Notes under the pieces: model-generated | What the model saw: the letters and a program-made list of their open reading frames with translations, nothing else | Told to the model about the DNA's origin: nothing | Databases searched by the model: none | Program-made: the position numbers and the translations under genes | Shown: positions 16,182 through 21,522 of the stretch, one piece after another | How the letters are laid out: every line of letters begins with the position of its first letter | How positions within the stretch are numbered: position 1 is the stretch's first letter | Virus record (IMG/VR): IMGVR_UViG_3300034105_000185 | Span: 1-36,906 of that record | Source: a virus | DNA length: 36,906 nucleotides | Reading direction: 5' to 3' (one strand)

Positions 16182-16388
16182 ATGCAGTACAAGTGCATCC
16201 GTGGCGTAATAACATCGCAAGGCCCACTAAATGTGGGTGATGTTGCTACCCTTCCACATGGCGAGGCCTTGGTGCTTATCGCTCAAAAGAAAATCGAAAT
16301 TTTTGAAGAGGCTGTCCGCGTAGCCGAAGCCCCAAAAGTCGAGCATCGTGATCCTGTAATTAAGCGCAGTCCTAAGAATGGGCGTTGA
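16182..16388 (+). CDS. Small head protein candidate (unknown)
   Basis: 68 residues from ATG 16182 (GGAG 6 nt upstream); the longer frame from 16125 would run through the hairpin and is unlikely. Beta-rich start (MQYKCIRGVITSQGPLNVGDVATLP) resembles small SH3-like proteins found after capsid genes; a helical AQKKIEIFEEAV segment and a basic tail follow. Position suggests a capsid accessory or connector role. It overlaps the next gene by 11 nt. No firm family. Confidence 0.65.
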   Translation: MQYKCIRGVITSQGPLNVGDVATLPHGEALVLIAQKKIEIFEEAVRVAEAPKVEHRDPVIKRSPKNGR

Positions 16389-16689
16389 ATCTGCCGCTGA
16401 TATTCTCGATTTCTTTGAACTCGACGATTTTGCAGATACTGCCACTTACACACCAGTAGGTGGTAGTGCTGTTTCTGTGAACGGTATCTTTGATGCTCCA
16501 CAGGCCAGCCGTGGCGCAACAGACCTGATGGACATTACAATCCCATCGCCACAGTTTGTTTGCCGCACTGCTGATGTAGCCTCGGCTGCTGATGGGGATG
16601 AAATCATTATTCGCTCTGTGGCTTACAACGTGCGCGTTGTACTGACAGACGGAACTGGTGTATCGACGCTTATACTCGAAAAGGTGTAA
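16378..16689 (+). CDS. Head-tail attachment protein, FII-like
   Basis: 103 residues. The opening AADILDFFELDDFADTATYTPVGGSAVSVNGIFD is the signature style of lambda FII/Phage_attach proteins, which join tail to head; the rest is beta-rich (IIIRSVAYNVRVVLTDGTGVSTLIL). Length is slightly less than lambda FII. It begins within the end of the preceding gene. Role and place in the connector are inferred from family and order. Confidence 0.82.
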   Translation: MGVESAADILDFFELDDFADTATYTPVGGSAVSVNGIFDAPQASRGATDLMDITIPSPQFVCRTADVASAADGDEIIIRSVAYNVRVVLTDGTGVSTLILEKV

Positions 16690-16690
16690 C

Positions 16691-17206
16691 ATGGCGCACG
16701 TTCGGCAGCAGATCAGAGACTATGTTGCCGAATTGTTGGTTAAATATATCTATGATAGGTTTGGCATTGTAATCCAAGATCGTTTTAATATTGATCTTAG
16801 AGCCAGAGGGTCTGGGGATTTGCTTTCTACAGGAACATTGTACAAGTTTCGTCGTTATGCGCTTGATGAAGAAAAGCTACCCGCTCTCATTGTTTACACC
16901 ACTACTGACATATCTAGGCTTGCAACCATAGGCCAGCGGACGATGACGCACGACCTTGAGTTAAGGGTGGACATCATAAACAAGGGATCAAGTGTTAGCA
17001 TATTTGAGAACATTGAGCAGTTTTCAGCGGAACTTATACACGCAGTTGAGGATGACTTCTTATTAGGCGGATTGGCAAAAAGCTGTGTGCTGGCAAGTTC
17101 AGACTTTGACGTTGAAACTGGCGGCGAAAAGGCTATCGGTTCTGGCAAGATGATATTTAACGTGCAGTATACAACCGCCATAAATAACTGTCAGGTGTCA
17201 ATCTAA
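16691..17206 (+). CDS. Tail terminator/minor tail protein, copy 1 (gpU/Z position)
   Basis: 171 residues from ATG 16691 (AAAGG upstream); the listed upstream frame from 16658 overlaps the FII-like gene and is less likely. It shares with the next gene an opening MAHxxQQIRD, YALDEEKLPALIVYT, DLELRVDIINKGSS and GGLAKSCVLASSDFDVETGGEKA, so the two are tandem paralogues. Relative to copy 2 it has an extra 20-odd residues after position 15 (LVKYIYDRFGIV). By position it should end the tail tube or join it to the head. The TAA overlaps the next ATG. Confidence 0.75.
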   Translation: MAHVRQQIRDYVAELLVKYIYDRFGIVIQDRFNIDLRARGSGDLLSTGTLYKFRRYALDEEKLPALIVYTTTDISRLATIGQRTMTHDLELRVDIINKGSSVSIFENIEQFSAELIHAVEDDFLLGGLAKSCVLASSDFDVETGGEKAIGSGKMIFNVQYTTAINNCQVSI

Positions 17207-17649
17207 TGGCGCACATAAACCAACAGATTAGGGACAGGGTGGTTACCATCATCGGTGCGCTGCCTTTCTTTTCTGGCCGCGTCTACAAGATGCGTTCATA
17301 TGCCTTGGATGAAGCAAAGCTGCCAGCGGCTGTAGTTTACACCAACAGTCAATCATCTTCGCTTGTCAGTATAGGCTTCAGGACGCTTCGTGGTTCGTTA
17401 AATCTTACGGTGGATATTCACATCAAGGGTTCCAGCGCGACGATAGTAAATGAAATAGATGATGCCTGTGTTCTGATTGAGGACGCCATTGGCTCTGATT
17501 TCTCACTCAACGGATTAGTTAAGAGTTGCGTTTTGACTGAAACCGACGTAGACATTAACGTCGAAGGCGAAAAGCCAACGGCCTCTGCTCGGTTGTCTTA
17601 CGTTGCTGAATATGTTACATCCATAGCTGATGTGGAGACACCAAGATGA
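17206..17649 (+). CDS. Tail terminator/minor tail protein, copy 2
   Basis: 147 residues, paralogue of the preceding gene: same order of blocks (QQIRDRV, YALDEAKLPAAVVYT, LNLTVDIHIKGSSATI, GLVKSCVLTETDVDINVEGEKP). The proteins are clearly related but well diverged, so the duplication is old. One copy may be the tail terminator and the other a connector protein (lambda Z and U also lie side by side). Overlaps the next gene by ATGA. Confidence 0.75.
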   Translation: MAHINQQIRDRVVTIIGALPFFSGRVYKMRSYALDEAKLPAAVVYTNSQSSSLVSIGFRTLRGSLNLTVDIHIKGSSATIVNEIDDACVLIEDAIGSDFSLNGLVKSCVLTETDVDINVEGEKPTASARLSYVAEYVTSIADVETPR

Positions 17650-17792
17650 AGATGGTCAAAGTTTACAACAAAACTGGCGATGAGATACTCGCTTGTGAGT
17701 GTGATCTAGAGCAATATCAGTCTAACGGCTGGGATGTTAAGAAGGCTGCAAAGCCAAAGGTTCAAGCAGAAAAAGTCGAGGAGTCTGAGTAA
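17646..17792 (+). CDS. 48-residue Lys/Glu-rich protein (unknown)
   Basis: Short ORF locked between its neighbours: ATGA overlap in front and TAATG overlap behind. Sequence begins KVYNKTGDEILACECDLEQYQSNGWDVKK and ends with a charged tail. Similar small proteins with a 'xxGW' motif occur next to tail tube genes in many phages. Its tight packing argues that it is real. Function unknown. Confidence 0.65.
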   Translation: MKMVKVYNKTGDEILACECDLEQYQSNGWDVKKAAKPKVQAEKVEESE

Positions 17793-18190
17793 TGGCTACG
17801 CATACTGGCAGTGAAGGAACGCTCAAGGTTGGAGCGAACACCATCGCAGAGATTCGCTCCTACTCTTTGGAAGAAACCGCTGACACTGTCGAAGATACTT
17901 CGATGGGTGATAGCTACCGTAGCTTTAAAACAACACTGAAGGGTTGGTCAGGCTCCGTTGACGTATTCTGGGATGAGACTGACACGAACGGTCAGGTTGC
18001 CCTTGTAGTCGGCGCTCAGGTCACAATCAGCGTATTCCCAGAGGGTGCGTCGGCTGGCGTGTCTGAAAAGTATTATACCGGAACGGCGACTGTGACAGGA
18101 AAGACCATCACTGGCAGCTTTGACGGCATGGTGGAATCGACAATCACGCTTCAAGGCACTGGTGCTTTGACTGAAGCAACACTGGCGTAA
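17792..18190 (+). CDS. Tail tube protein, copy 1
   Basis: 132 residues, beta-rich, in the major tail protein position (lambda V). Blocks such as SYSLEETADTVEDTSMGDS and GKTITGSFDGMVESTITLQ fit the tail tube fold, with a loop then a long hairpin. It forms stacked hexamers around the tape measure. The next gene encodes a close paralogue. The ATG overlaps the previous TAA. Confidence 0.85.
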   Translation: MATHTGSEGTLKVGANTIAEIRSYSLEETADTVEDTSMGDSYRSFKTTLKGWSGSVDVFWDETDTNGQVALVVGAQVTISVFPEGASAGVSEKYYTGTATVTGKTITGSFDGMVESTITLQGTGALTEATLA

Positions 18191-18199
18191 GGATAAGAC

Positions 18200-18592
18200 A
18201 TGGCTACCCATACTGGTTCAGAAGGCACTGTACGCATTGGCGCGACCAATAACGTGCTTGAAATTCGTTCGTACTCGGTTGAAGAAACTGCCGATACTGT
18301 TGAAGATACCTCAATGGGCGATAGCTATCGCACGTTCAAGACTACCCTGAAGGGTTGGTCTGGATCGATTGATGTGTTCTGGGACGAAACTGACACCACG
18401 GGTCAGGGCGCATTGGTTCCCGGTTCTGAAGTAGCCATCCGGTTCTATCCAGAGGGCGCTACAACCGCAGACGTTTATTTAACGGGTCAAGCCATTGTAA
18501 CTGGCAAGACTATCACAGGCAGCTTCGATGGTATGGTGGAATCCACTATCACTGTTCAAGGAACAGGGGCTTTGACTAGCGCGGCTGTATAA
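18200..18592 (+). CDS. Tail tube protein, copy 2
   Basis: 130 residues, strongly similar to copy 1 along its whole length: identical MATHTGSEGT, ETADTVEDTSMGDSYR, FKTTLKGWSGS, VFWDETDT and TGKTITGSFDGMVESTIT. Differences cluster in residues 10-20 and 70-95, expected to be surface loops. The DNA differs at many synonymous sites, so both copies have been kept under protein selection for long. AAGGA precedes the ATG. Two tube subunits could form a mixed tube or be used in different parts of it. Confidence 0.85.
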   Translation: MATHTGSEGTVRIGATNNVLEIRSYSVEETADTVEDTSMGDSYRTFKTTLKGWSGSIDVFWDETDTTGQGALVPGSEVAIRFYPEGATTADVYLTGQAIVTGKTITGSFDGMVESTITVQGTGALTSAAV

Positions 18593-18607: not shown

Positions 18608-18946
18608 ATGAGTATTGCCAAGCGTATTGCAGAGCGGACATCGAATAAGCGTCACATAGACGTTCCAGAGTGGGGTGATGAAGGCAAGCCAGAGAAGGTC
18701 TATTACGGCCCTCTGCTTGCCGGTGAGTTAAACCGCATCCAGCGCAAGCATCCTAACTTCCTCAATTCAACATCGTTTGATGCAATGGTTGACCTCATCA
18801 TTCTTAAAGCTGAGAATGGTCAAGGTGAAAAGCTGTTCACGCTTGAGGACAAGGCTGTTCTGATGCGTGAAGAAGTATCTGTGATCTCTAATGTCGCTGC
18901 CGCATTTATGAGCGGAGATAGCGTCGAGGAGCAGGAAAAAAACTAA
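18608..18946 (+). CDS. Tail assembly chaperone G
   Basis: 112 residues in the position of lambda G, between tail tube and tape measure. Mixed alpha protein with LLAGELNRIQRKHPNFLN and FTLEDKAVLMREEVSVISNVAAAFM. It ends directly after a slippery heptamer; a fraction of ribosomes should shift to make the GT form. Chaperones of this class bind the tape measure before tube assembly. AAGGA precedes the ATG. Confidence 0.85.
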   Translation: MSIAKRIAERTSNKRHIDVPEWGDEGKPEKVYYGPLLAGELNRIQRKHPNFLNSTSFDAMVDLIILKAENGQGEKLFTLEDKAVLMREEVSVISNVAAAFMSGDSVEEQEKN

Positions 18947-19104
18947 GAAACGATCCGCTTAGGTATAATTTAATTACCTTGGCGGATCGGCTTGGCAAAA
19001 CCATTGCGGAGATTGAACAAATCTCAATTGAAGAGTATAACGAGTGGGTAGCATTCTTCAAAGTGAGTGAGGAAAACCAGAAGCGTGGCAGAGCAAAATC
19101 TTGA
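18608..19104 (+). CDS. GT tail assembly chaperone by -1 ribosomal frameshift
   Basis: The heptamer A AAA AAC (18937-18943) sits in the zero frame as GAA AAA AAC, right before the G stop TAA. A -1 shift continues with 53 codons (LRNDPLRYNLITLADRLGKT...) to TGA 19102-19104, giving 165 residues. The T part has LADRLGKTIAEIEQISIEEYNEWVAFFK, the pattern of the T domain in lambda-type GT. It has no start of its own, so frameshifting is the only good explanation. G and GT in a fixed ratio are needed for tail assembly in lambda. Confidence 0.85.
18937..18943 (+). other. Programmed -1 frameshift slippery site AAAAAAC
   Basis: X XXY YYZ heptamer read A AAA AAC in frame with G, placed one codon before the G stop. 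A possible downstream stimulatory fold could not be judged by eye. Confidence 0.85.
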
Positions 19105-20932
19105 TTTTAACATTGTTGCTCATACGCAAGGTATGGAGGCAATCGCCAATCTGATAAATCGGGTTGGCGCACTTGAGTCTGCGACCAAGAAATTAGATAA
19201 TGCTTTTTCACAAATGCAAGGTTCTACTGGCGGCGTTGAGGCTGCGGTAAGAAAAACCGGAAGCGGCCTTGATGCTGCTGCCAAGCAGATTCGCAATGCC
19301 CGTCAAGGCACTCAACAGCTTGGGATGCAGTTTAACGATCTGGCTACATCCATATCGACTGGTGCAAGTCCGGTTCAAGCCTTTAACCAGCAAATAGGCC
19401 AAATTGGTTTTGCTATGTCCATGATGGGCGGCAAACTGGGGGCGCTTGGGTCTTTCTTGGCTGGCCCTTGGAGTATCTTGGTTATTGGCGCTGCAATGGT
19501 GCTTGGGCCACTTATAGAGGGTCTACTTGATACAGGAGCCGCTGCTGAAGAAGCCAAGAAGAAGGCAGACAATTTAAGTAAGGCAGAGAGTGCATTTCGT
19601 GACAGCACCCTAAAACTAATGGAATCACGCTTGGCTTTGCAAGGGCCAATTGAGAAGAATGTTGAGGGTTATCGCAAACTGTATGTGGCATCACTTAACG
19701 CCGCTAACGCTGATTTAGCGTCAGCTAGGACGGCTGTTACTGCGGCGCAGCAAAGAATTAGGGCTGCTGAAATAGAAGCTAAAACCATAGCGCAGTTAAA
19801 ATCTGGTTCTAGGGAAGGTAAAACCGGAATTGGAAAATCAGGCTTGGCAGGGATTATTGGCTCTGCCGTAGGCTTTGGCCTTGACCTTTTTGGTTATGGT
19901 AAAGGTGGGCAAGCCGCAAAAGAAGAAAAAATGGTTGCTGATACGGCTGCTAATATAGCTGAAGCTGGGGTGAACGCGGCTCAAAAGATACTGAATGACT
20001 TTGAGAAAGATGCTGCAAGGGGCTTTAAAAAACCACTTACCGAAGCGCAGCAAAGGTCTGCTGCAAGAAGGGCCGCTGCTGAAGCCAAGCGAATTGCAAA
20101 AGAAGCAGAAGCAGCCCGTGAAAAAGAAGCAAAATCCATAGAGTCATTTATGGACAAGATCGGCAAAGTCGGGATGAAGGAAATCCCAGCGTATCAGCGG
20201 CAAATTGCTGAATTGGAAAAAGACTTCATGGAACTGTCTAAGACAGGCCAAGCCGCGACCATTGCGCCATTTAAGGCTGCGGTGGAATCCATTGAGATGA
20301 GCGCATATAGCGATGCTTTAGCGGAAAACGCTAAGGATGCTGAAAAGATGATTGCTGACATTGTAAAGGACACTCCAGAAATAAAAATGAGTGTAGAGAT
20401 GGAAGCTATAATAAGCCGGGCTGATGACATGCGTACTTCATTCGAGTCCGTAGGCCAATCTGTCAGCGACGCCTTCAAGGGCATGTTGACTGGTGCGACA
20501 TCATTTAAAGATGGTATGCGCAGCATCATCGGTTCTGTGATTGACGAATTATGGAAGTTGTTTGTTGTGCAACAAATCGTTGGTTTTATAACTGGTACTG
20601 TAGCGCCAGCCCTTGGTATTAAGTTGCCAAAAAGGGCATTGGGTGGTTCGGTAGACAGCAATAAGCCCTACATGGTTGGTGAACGCGGCCCAGAACTGTT
20701 TGTCCCCGGCGGTAACGGCACAATCATTCCCAACAACAACATGCGCGGTGGCAACGGAGGCGGAAGCAGCTTTAACATCAGCGTAGACGCCCGTGGCTCA
20801 AATGATCCAGCCGCTGTTCGCGCTCAGGTAATGCAGGGCATCCTTGAGACTGCTCCGGCAATTATCGCAGCGGCAGAGTCGCGCACAATCTCAAATCTTC
20901 GTAGGCCACGCCTCGGTGGAGCAATGCAGTAA
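19085..20932 (+). CDS. Tail tape measure protein
   Basis: 615 residues from GTG 19085, chosen because GAGGAA lies 10 nt upstream; GTG 19067 in the same frame lacks a good site. Helical N-terminus with Ala/Lys-rich repeats, a hydrophobic segment at about 108-148 (MSMMGGKLGALGS to VLGPLIEGLL), a long charged coiled region (about 300-450), and the conserved C-terminus KPYMVGERGPELFVPGG, as in lambda-type tape measures. It sets tail length and may enter the cell membrane at infection. If the usual length rule holds, the tail should be of the order of 90 nm; this is an estimate. It overlaps the T frame by 20 nt. Confidence 0.93.
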   Translation: MAEQNLDFNIVAHTQGMEAIANLINRVGALESATKKLDNAFSQMQGSTGGVEAAVRKTGSGLDAAAKQIRNARQGTQQLGMQFNDLATSISTGASPVQAFNQQIGQIGFAMSMMGGKLGALGSFLAGPWSILVIGAAMVLGPLIEGLLDTGAAAEEAKKKADNLSKAESAFRDSTLKLMESRLALQGPIEKNVEGYRKLYVASLNAANADLASARTAVTAAQQRIRAAEIEAKTIAQLKSGSREGKTGIGKSGLAGIIGSAVGFGLDLFGYGKGGQAAKEEKMVADTAANIAEAGVNAAQKILNDFEKDAARGFKKPLTEAQQRSAARRAAAEAKRIAKEAEAAREKEAKSIESFMDKIGKVGMKEIPAYQRQIAELEKDFMELSKTGQAATIAPFKAAVESIEMSAYSDALAENAKDAEKMIADIVKDTPEIKMSVEMEAIISRADDMRTSFESVGQSVSDAFKGMLTGATSFKDGMRSIIGSVIDELWKLFVVQQIVGFITGTVAPALGIKLPKRALGGSVDSNKPYMVGERGPELFVPGGNGTIIPNNNMRGGNGGGSSFNISVDARGSNDPAAVRAQVMQGILETAPAIIAAAESRTISNLRRPRLGGAMQ

Positions 20933-21522
20933 TGGCGACAATTACATATCCTTCAACGCCAAGGCCGCAGGGCATGGCATGGCGGCTGCTTATGCCAGCG
21001 CAGACCAATGTATCTGATTGGACGGGTCGGCGTCAGACGATTGCCTCTGGTCGTGGCTGGTGGGAATGCCAAATAACGTTTCCGCCAATCATAGGCACGA
21101 CAAACATCAATGCTTGGCGCTCGTTTATTGCCAAATCGCGTGGTGCGGCTAATGACTTTCAGGTGAAGGTGGACCCAACTGCGCAGTCGGCATCAACAGC
21201 TACCCCATTGGTGAACGGCGCTGGTCAGACAGGGCGGACGCTGAACACAGACGGCTGGCCTCTGTCAACAACTGTCTTACAGGCTGGTCAGTATGTCACC
21301 ATTAACAACCAGCTTTTGCAGTTGACTGAGAATGTAACGTCAAACGGATCGGGCGTTGCCACCCTGACTTTTGAGCCACCCATTCGTACACCGTCATCTG
21401 ACAACGCAGCGATTGAATACAAGAACCCGTTTTGCCTAATGTATCTGGTAGAGGAGCCAACGCTTTCAGTTGAGACAGGTTATGTGTATAGCCTCTCGCT
21501 GAACTTACGGGAGTCCTTCTAA
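20932..21522 (+). CDS. Distal/minor tail protein (gpM position)
   Basis: 196 residues, beta-rich, following the tape measure where lambda has M. Recognisable pieces: a WRLLMPAQTNVSDWTGRRQTI start, WWECQITFPPI, NAWRSFIAKSRGAANDFQVKVD and a C-terminal SLNLRESF. Related proteins in alphaproteobacterial phages are annotated only as tail proteins. TAATG coupling on both sides. Probably part of the tail tip baseplate; family name not certain. Confidence 0.8.
   Translation: MATITYPSTPRPQGMAWRLLMPAQTNVSDWTGRRQTIASGRGWWECQITFPPIIGTTNINAWRSFIAKSRGAANDFQVKVDPTAQSASTATPLVNGAGQTGRTLNTDGWPLSTTVLQAGQYVTINNQLLQLTENVTSNGSGVATLTFEPPIRTPSSDNAAIEYKNPFCLMYLVEEPTLSVETGYVYSLSLNLRESF

Follow-up and report, generated by a model that had tools for sequence, protein, structure and literature searches.

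The siphophage described here encodes two paralogous tail tube proteins, TTa and TTb, and comparison of their sequences within and between genomes leads us to propose, at a probability of about 0.55, that both subunits are intermixed in one tube. Judged from the alignments, the loop expected to stack ring on ring is near-identical in the two copies and changes in parallel, and the surfaces expected to face ring neighbors have diverged and are fixed and paralog-specific.

Two intact tube genes in a siphophage virion module

The window (the whole stretch of DNA analyzed, a 36,906-base IMG/VR virus record) contains the virion module of a siphophage, composed of the terminase large subunit, portal, major head, joining, terminator, and tube proteins, and continuing with chaperone, tape measure, distal tail, and fiber proteins. 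The features that concern us are the following.

16378..16689, + strand, head-tail joining or head closure protein (stopper); Pfam PF05354 E 1.7e-18, PHROG 82 E 2.7e-20
16691..17206, + strand, TRa, diverged extra tail terminator, 171 aa from ATG 16691; PHROG 4204 E 1e-14, AlphaFold2, Foldseek
17206..17649, + strand, TRb, tail terminator, 147 aa; PHROG 4204 E 8.6e-19, quick tree
17646..17792, + strand, small 48-aa gene in the terminator-tube interval, overlapping the TTa start codon
17792..18190, + strand, TTa, first tail tube protein, 132 aa; PHROG 1407 E 5e-17, PDB 8gtb E 1.8e-6, ortholog group
18191..18199, + strand, spacer of 9 bases between the TTa stop and the TTb ATG
18200..18592, + strand, TTb, second tail tube protein, 130 aa; PHROG 1407 E 1.8e-14, PDB 8gtb E 5.9e-8, ortholog group
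18608..18946, + strand, tail assembly chaperone; PHROG 344 E 3e-6
19067..20932, + strand, tape measure protein, 621 aa; PHROG 1538 E 6.3e-20
20932..21522, + strand, distal tail protein (Dit), the expected tube base; PHROG 1302 E 1e-41

An initial annotation of the window had reported adjacent, highly similar, and intact tube genes at 17792-18592. Such a pair is indeed present there, between the terminator genes and the chaperone and tape measure genes, with both open reading frames intact, on the + strand and in the same frame, and with 99 of 129 aligned residues identical. The many silent differences that had been remarked upon are also real. A count of silent against replacement changes, which had been proposed as a check, gave 42 identical codons, 57 synonymous changes, and 30 residue-changing differences among the 129 aligned codons. 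At the nucleotide level the genes are 69% identical, with differences at 80 of 129 third positions, and the NG86 method gave no finite dS for the pair, the synonymous sites being saturated. Chance similarity was rejected because tblastn with one copy recovers the other at E = 4e-60 and both proteins match PHROG 1407 (major tail protein). Neither had a Pfam match at E 0.001, and the tube protein of phage R4C (PDB 8gtb) was the sole PDB sequence match of either.

The two divergent loops described earlier lie at about residues 11-20 and 74-96, to which the last 5-7 residues should be added. TTa carries what we call a-type marks, a two-residue insert (V90-S91) with E92-K93 and the C-terminal L131-A132, and TTb carries b-type marks (insert T16, L20, and R81). 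Each gene is preceded by a Shine-Dalgarno-like site. That of TTb, TAAGGA, begins within the TTa stop codon and ends 6 bases before the TTb ATG.

The tube proteins form two old ortholog groups

Relatives were gathered by five IMG/VR scans, the best 80 loci being taken from each. The resulting 315 loci, window included, gave 158 distinct tube-gene DNAs (4 loci that lacked a tube gene were dropped, and near-identical phages with differing DNA were counted separately). Complete context, meaning joining-protein and chaperone genes on both sides, was found for 135 of the 158. Among the IMG/VR loci listed, 62 of these 135 distinct relatives had two tube genes.

The two copies are readily told apart. 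The two-residue insert at 90-91 is present in 73 of 73 first copies, and the insert at 16 with L or V at position 20 is present in 72 of 74 second copies. R81 is fixed in 58 distinct b proteins, the a proteins having N or S and the single proteins mostly N at this position. In the tree one branch sets off the a group and another the b group (SH-aLRT 97 and 92), and the 68 single-copy proteins belong to neither. None of the 73 complete single-copy loci listed encodes an a-type or b-type protein, and the two a-type single copies seen (L123 and L153) sit near contig ends. Hence, no complete locus listed has lost one copy. Purifying selection is equally strong on both groups (median dN/dS 0.075 for a and 0.082 for b, 400 pairs each). 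The earlier claim that both genes are kept intact and are probably used is therefore well supported at the sequence level by the 62 two-copy loci, the equal selection, and the empty count among single-copy loci.

A recent duplication was rejected because silent sites are saturated between the copies. The idea of the second copy as a recent, redundant duplicate heading for loss seems scarcely credible: nothing speaks for it besides the duplication itself, whereas the saturation, a dN/dS of about 0.08, and the retention of two copies in 62 distinct complete loci listed all speak against it.

The two exceptional second copies belong to L132 (5977-6797; the same contig as L053) and L167 (6560-7359). 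In both loci the first copy has the a-type insert and shares the 'LA' end, and the second lacks the b-type inserts and L20. The tree puts both copies of each outside the main a and b groups, but a single clade of all first copies, or one of all second copies, is not rejected by AU tests (p 0.93 in either case). The two pairs may have branched off early or may stem from a convergent duplication.

In named phages a single tube gene was found in all 17 records matching TTa (E 1e-5) and in all 19 matching TTb (E 1). Two tube copies were found in none of four genome-collection hits, within the stretch covered.

The two copies change in parallel within genomes

The pair tests used only pairs in which both copies exceed 125 aa, reduced to 62 distinct protein pairs (a number that equals that of the two-tube complete loci by coincidence, the filters being different). 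TTa-TTb protein identity was 0.794 within genomes versus 0.766 when partners were permuted. As none of 2000 permutations reached the observed value (the best gave 0.775), the a-b pairing matters beyond shared descent. The excess lies at columns 31, 34, 37, 42, 46, 52, 54, 56, and 105-107, plus 12, 76, and 80. At position 34 the residues match in 61 of 62 pairs (A/A, V/V, or T/T). Matching is not absolute, since some phages mix sub-types, as in L017 (TTa A34, TTb V34).

Changes to the same residue on the same branch numbered 30 on the tube tree (null 5.8, maximum 14) and 49 on a tree of the downstream chaperone gene (null 12.6, maximum 23). As a control the two copies were offset from each other by as many as 60 columns. 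Register 0 gave 41 same-branch coincidences versus a mean of 8.1 and a maximum of 17 at the 120 shifted registers, and in this analysis the same-residue events were spread over 16 branches. Changes in TTa were mirrored in TTb in 19 of 56 cases in residues 28-57 versus 3 of 112 cases in residues 65-99, and the mirrored positions fall in two separate stretches. Single columns held 1-4 independent event pairs in the columns seen, none being significant alone.

Gene conversion was considered as the cause of the likeness between copies and found no support, as silent-codon identity did not rise within genomes (0.441 versus 0.444 between genomes) or in residues 28-57 (0.450 versus 0.471 permuted). 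At position 34, 48 of the 61 matching pairs use different codons, and at most excess columns the matching residues are mostly in different codons, the exception being column 107 (33 same, 23 different). Because the matching residues mostly use different codons and the silent identity of 28-57 is not raised, conversion is not the simple cause. An old local conversion could be invoked instead of TTa-TTb contact, given that tandem paralogs are conversion-prone, that silent sites may have saturated since, and that silent identity rises slightly at 1-27 and 113-128 (rises equaled or surpassed in 5 of 300 and 1 of 300 permutations). However, the differing codons at position 34, the silent identity of 28-57, and the division of the mirrored positions into two stretches all argue against this explanation, which we regard as very unlikely.

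In four loci (L017, L023, L026, and L034) the TTa and TTb sub-types are reassorted in a quick tree, a pattern that suggests recombination inside the tail module.

Parallel and divergent positions on the R4C tube

The tube protein of Dinoroseobacter phage vB_DshS-R4C (8gtb) is the only solved sequence relative. It has 130 aa, the same expected fold, and a long stacking loop, but differs in being the one tube protein of a tail with 20 hexameric rings, according to the available part of the R4C paper (PMC10276861). R4C numbering was carried over by counting residues in the phmmer alignment, so that the mapping is one of alignment rather than structure; all checked R4C letters named in the paper agree with the count. 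In the portion of that paper available, V33 and W36 are described as inter-ring contacts, M38 of that loop as inserting into an inter-subunit pocket of the next ring down, and D67, E70, R91, and K126 as forming intra-ring salt bridges (PMC10276861). V33 and W36 correspond to TTb 34 and 37, inside the mirrored zone, and the four salt-bridge residues correspond to TTb 68, 73, 94, and 128, within or beside the divergent stretches. Mean Jensen-Shannon divergence between the a and b groups followed the same division: 0.012 at 28-50, 0.20 at 65-76, 0.39 at 77-84, 0.42 at 85-96, and 0.54 at 125-131.

An AlphaFold2 model of TTa fused to TTb had low confidence (pLDDT 60, pTM 0.40) and did not place the two domains; at that confidence it matched 8gtb with a TMt of 0.69. 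The idea that at residues 67/70 TTa keeps the ancestral state and TTb has a derived one was abandoned, since it looked sound with 21 single copies but failed with 68.

A proposed tube of two intermixed subunits

The initial annotation had left two arrangements side by side, a mixed tube or different tubes near tip and head. The first is favored here and the second is not, because the stacking loop appears to change in parallel. In the proposed tube TTa and TTb would meet at most ring-to-ring contacts. Stacking of a on b would require compatible loops and sockets, and unlike neighbors within a ring would be free to diverge, which would account for parallel loops and diverged sides. In its simplest form each hexameric ring would consist of three TTa alternating with three TTb in pseudo-sixfold symmetry. 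Alternation would be the most economical ordered form, and phages T5 and P74-26 offer a fused precedent, although we hold strict alternation only tentatively, the odds being somewhat against it. Shared partners of the two proteins (terminator, Dit, tape measure, and chaperone) could be an alternative source of the parallel change.

In a segregated tube, the bulk would consist of one paralog, and the other would be confined to one or a few rings by Dit or the terminator. The fixed paralog-specific residues do point to different roles, the neighboring terminator genes are doubled as well, and contractile tails have tube-initiator paralogs (T4 gp48/gp54). However, a single TTa-TTb junction predicts little parallel loop change, and strong change was observed. 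Moreover, a Shine-Dalgarno-like site precedes each copy, dN/dS is equally low for the two, and 25 of the 62 two-tube complete loci listed have a single terminator gene. We thus judge segregation unlikely. The copies might also be incorporated without order, for dosage or flexibility, as loops of such low divergence (0.012 in 28-50) would be nearly interchangeable. Such a random co-polymer is decidedly improbable, given that the copies differ in a fixed way at the mapped intra-ring positions and that neither has been lost in the 62 two-copy complete loci listed.

The tail terminator gene is also doubled in part of the group

A terminator duplication, which the initial annotation did not mention, adjoins the tube pair on its upstream side. 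TRa and TRb are a similar pair, both matching PHROG 4204 (tail terminator). The open reading frame tool starts TRa at GTG 16658; we used ATG 16691, which gives the 171 aa. Relative to TRb, about 25 extra residues are inserted close to the N-terminus of TRa, and in the 'YK-R' stretch 12 aligned TRa proteins have F, whereas TRb and 7 of 16 aligned single terminators have M. An AlphaFold2 model of TRa (pLDDT 69.9, pTM 0.68) matched the R4C and lambda gpU terminators in Foldseek (8gtf, 3fzb, and 8iyd; E down to 1.9e-7, TMt to 0.74). By sequence and predicted fold TRa is thus a tail terminator of the lambda gpU type. Its gene position had raised the possibility of a tail completion protein (lambda gpZ type), which found no support, as both PHROG hits and the leading Foldseek hits are terminators. 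In the quick tree TRa forms one long-stemmed clade of 28 rows, and the TRb clade (27 rows) falls with the relatives' single terminators. Capping of the tube, the usual terminator role, probably still belongs to TRb, and TRa may now form a second terminator-like ring or be part of a mixed cap.

Two terminator genes were found in 38 of the 135 complete-context relatives among the IMG/VR loci listed, and a single terminator in all seven named-phage records matching TRb. Of these complete-context loci, 72 have a single copy of each gene and 37 have both genes doubled; only the tube gene is doubled in 25, and only the terminator gene in 1. Because the last two classes exist, the duplications are separate events and, on gene content, that of the terminator is an optional step.

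Relation to known tail tubes

Roseobacter phage CRP-811 and its relatives have the same order of joining protein, terminator U, tube, chaperone, and tape measure genes, and the CRP-811 tube protein is 61% identical to TTa, but these phages have one terminator and one tube gene. The main text of the paper on the CRP-8xx Roseobacter phage family lacks the terms 'tail tube', 'major tail protein', and 'duplicat', and our search of the open-licence PMC literature found no description of tube duplication in this phage group.

The phage reported here is a variant of a known oddity, since Gordonia cluster DJ phages were already reported to have two related major tail genes. That likeness is taken from the published description rather than from compared sequences, and the available part of that description also gives the differences: the copies are 43% identical, one gene lies between them, and one copy is thought to be horizontally acquired. 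The same portion mentions no terminator duplication, and its authors leave the function of the two copies open. Two major tail genes are likewise reported for Microbacterium cluster EL phages, in the part of that source available. In phage SPP1 two major tail protein forms, gp17.1 and gp17.1*, reportedly occur in one tail. That arrangement resembles the one proposed here in having two tube forms, but they are said to come from a single gene with a translational frameshift rather than from two paralogous genes.

T5 pb6 and P74-26 build a pseudo-sixfold ring from two unlike tube domains, and the P74-26 paper infers gene duplication and fusion for its two-domain protein, as far as the available parts of these reports go (PMC8718954, PMC10034513). 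There the domains belong to one fused chain that forms trimers, those of P74-26 being 16% identical, whereas TTa and TTb are products of two separate genes and are 77% identical. They are not such a fused protein, as a stop codon and a spacer of 9-12 bases separate the genes in 72 of 72 pairs measured.

The solved siphophage tubes compared are each made from one gene product, as described in the available portions of the sources. It is possible, if rather doubtful, that TTa and TTb form an obligate alternating heterohexamer, an unfused stage between homohexameric tubes (R4C and lambda) and fused pseudo-hexameric trimers (T5 and P74-26), matched in part of the group by a two-protein terminator. 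If so, living phages would show a homo-oligomeric ring splitting into a hetero-oligomeric ring. Tubes encoded by one gene, by two, and in other phages by a fused gene form a natural series in which the route from homomeric to heteromeric rings becomes testable. Direction, stiffness, or length control would become testable questions for a two-part tube, and single- and double-copy relatives are near enough for direct comparison.

Other features of the tail module

The 48-aa gene between terminator and tube had no Pfam or PHROG match. Among the loci listed, it was found in 61 of 62 two-tube versus 14 of 73 one-tube complete loci, by a profile that derives from window-like relatives and could overlook more distant ones. 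At its 3' end the chaperone gene reads GAA AAA AAC TAA, which places an A AAA AAC heptamer (18937-18943) at the stop codon. A -1 shift there would enter the next open stretch (18979-19104), an arrangement that presumably resembles the G/GT-type tail chaperones. The tape measure protein had a median length of 633 aa in two-tube versus 574 aa in one-tube loci (106 complete-context loci with a complete gene; Mann-Whitney p 2e-5, kinship ignored).
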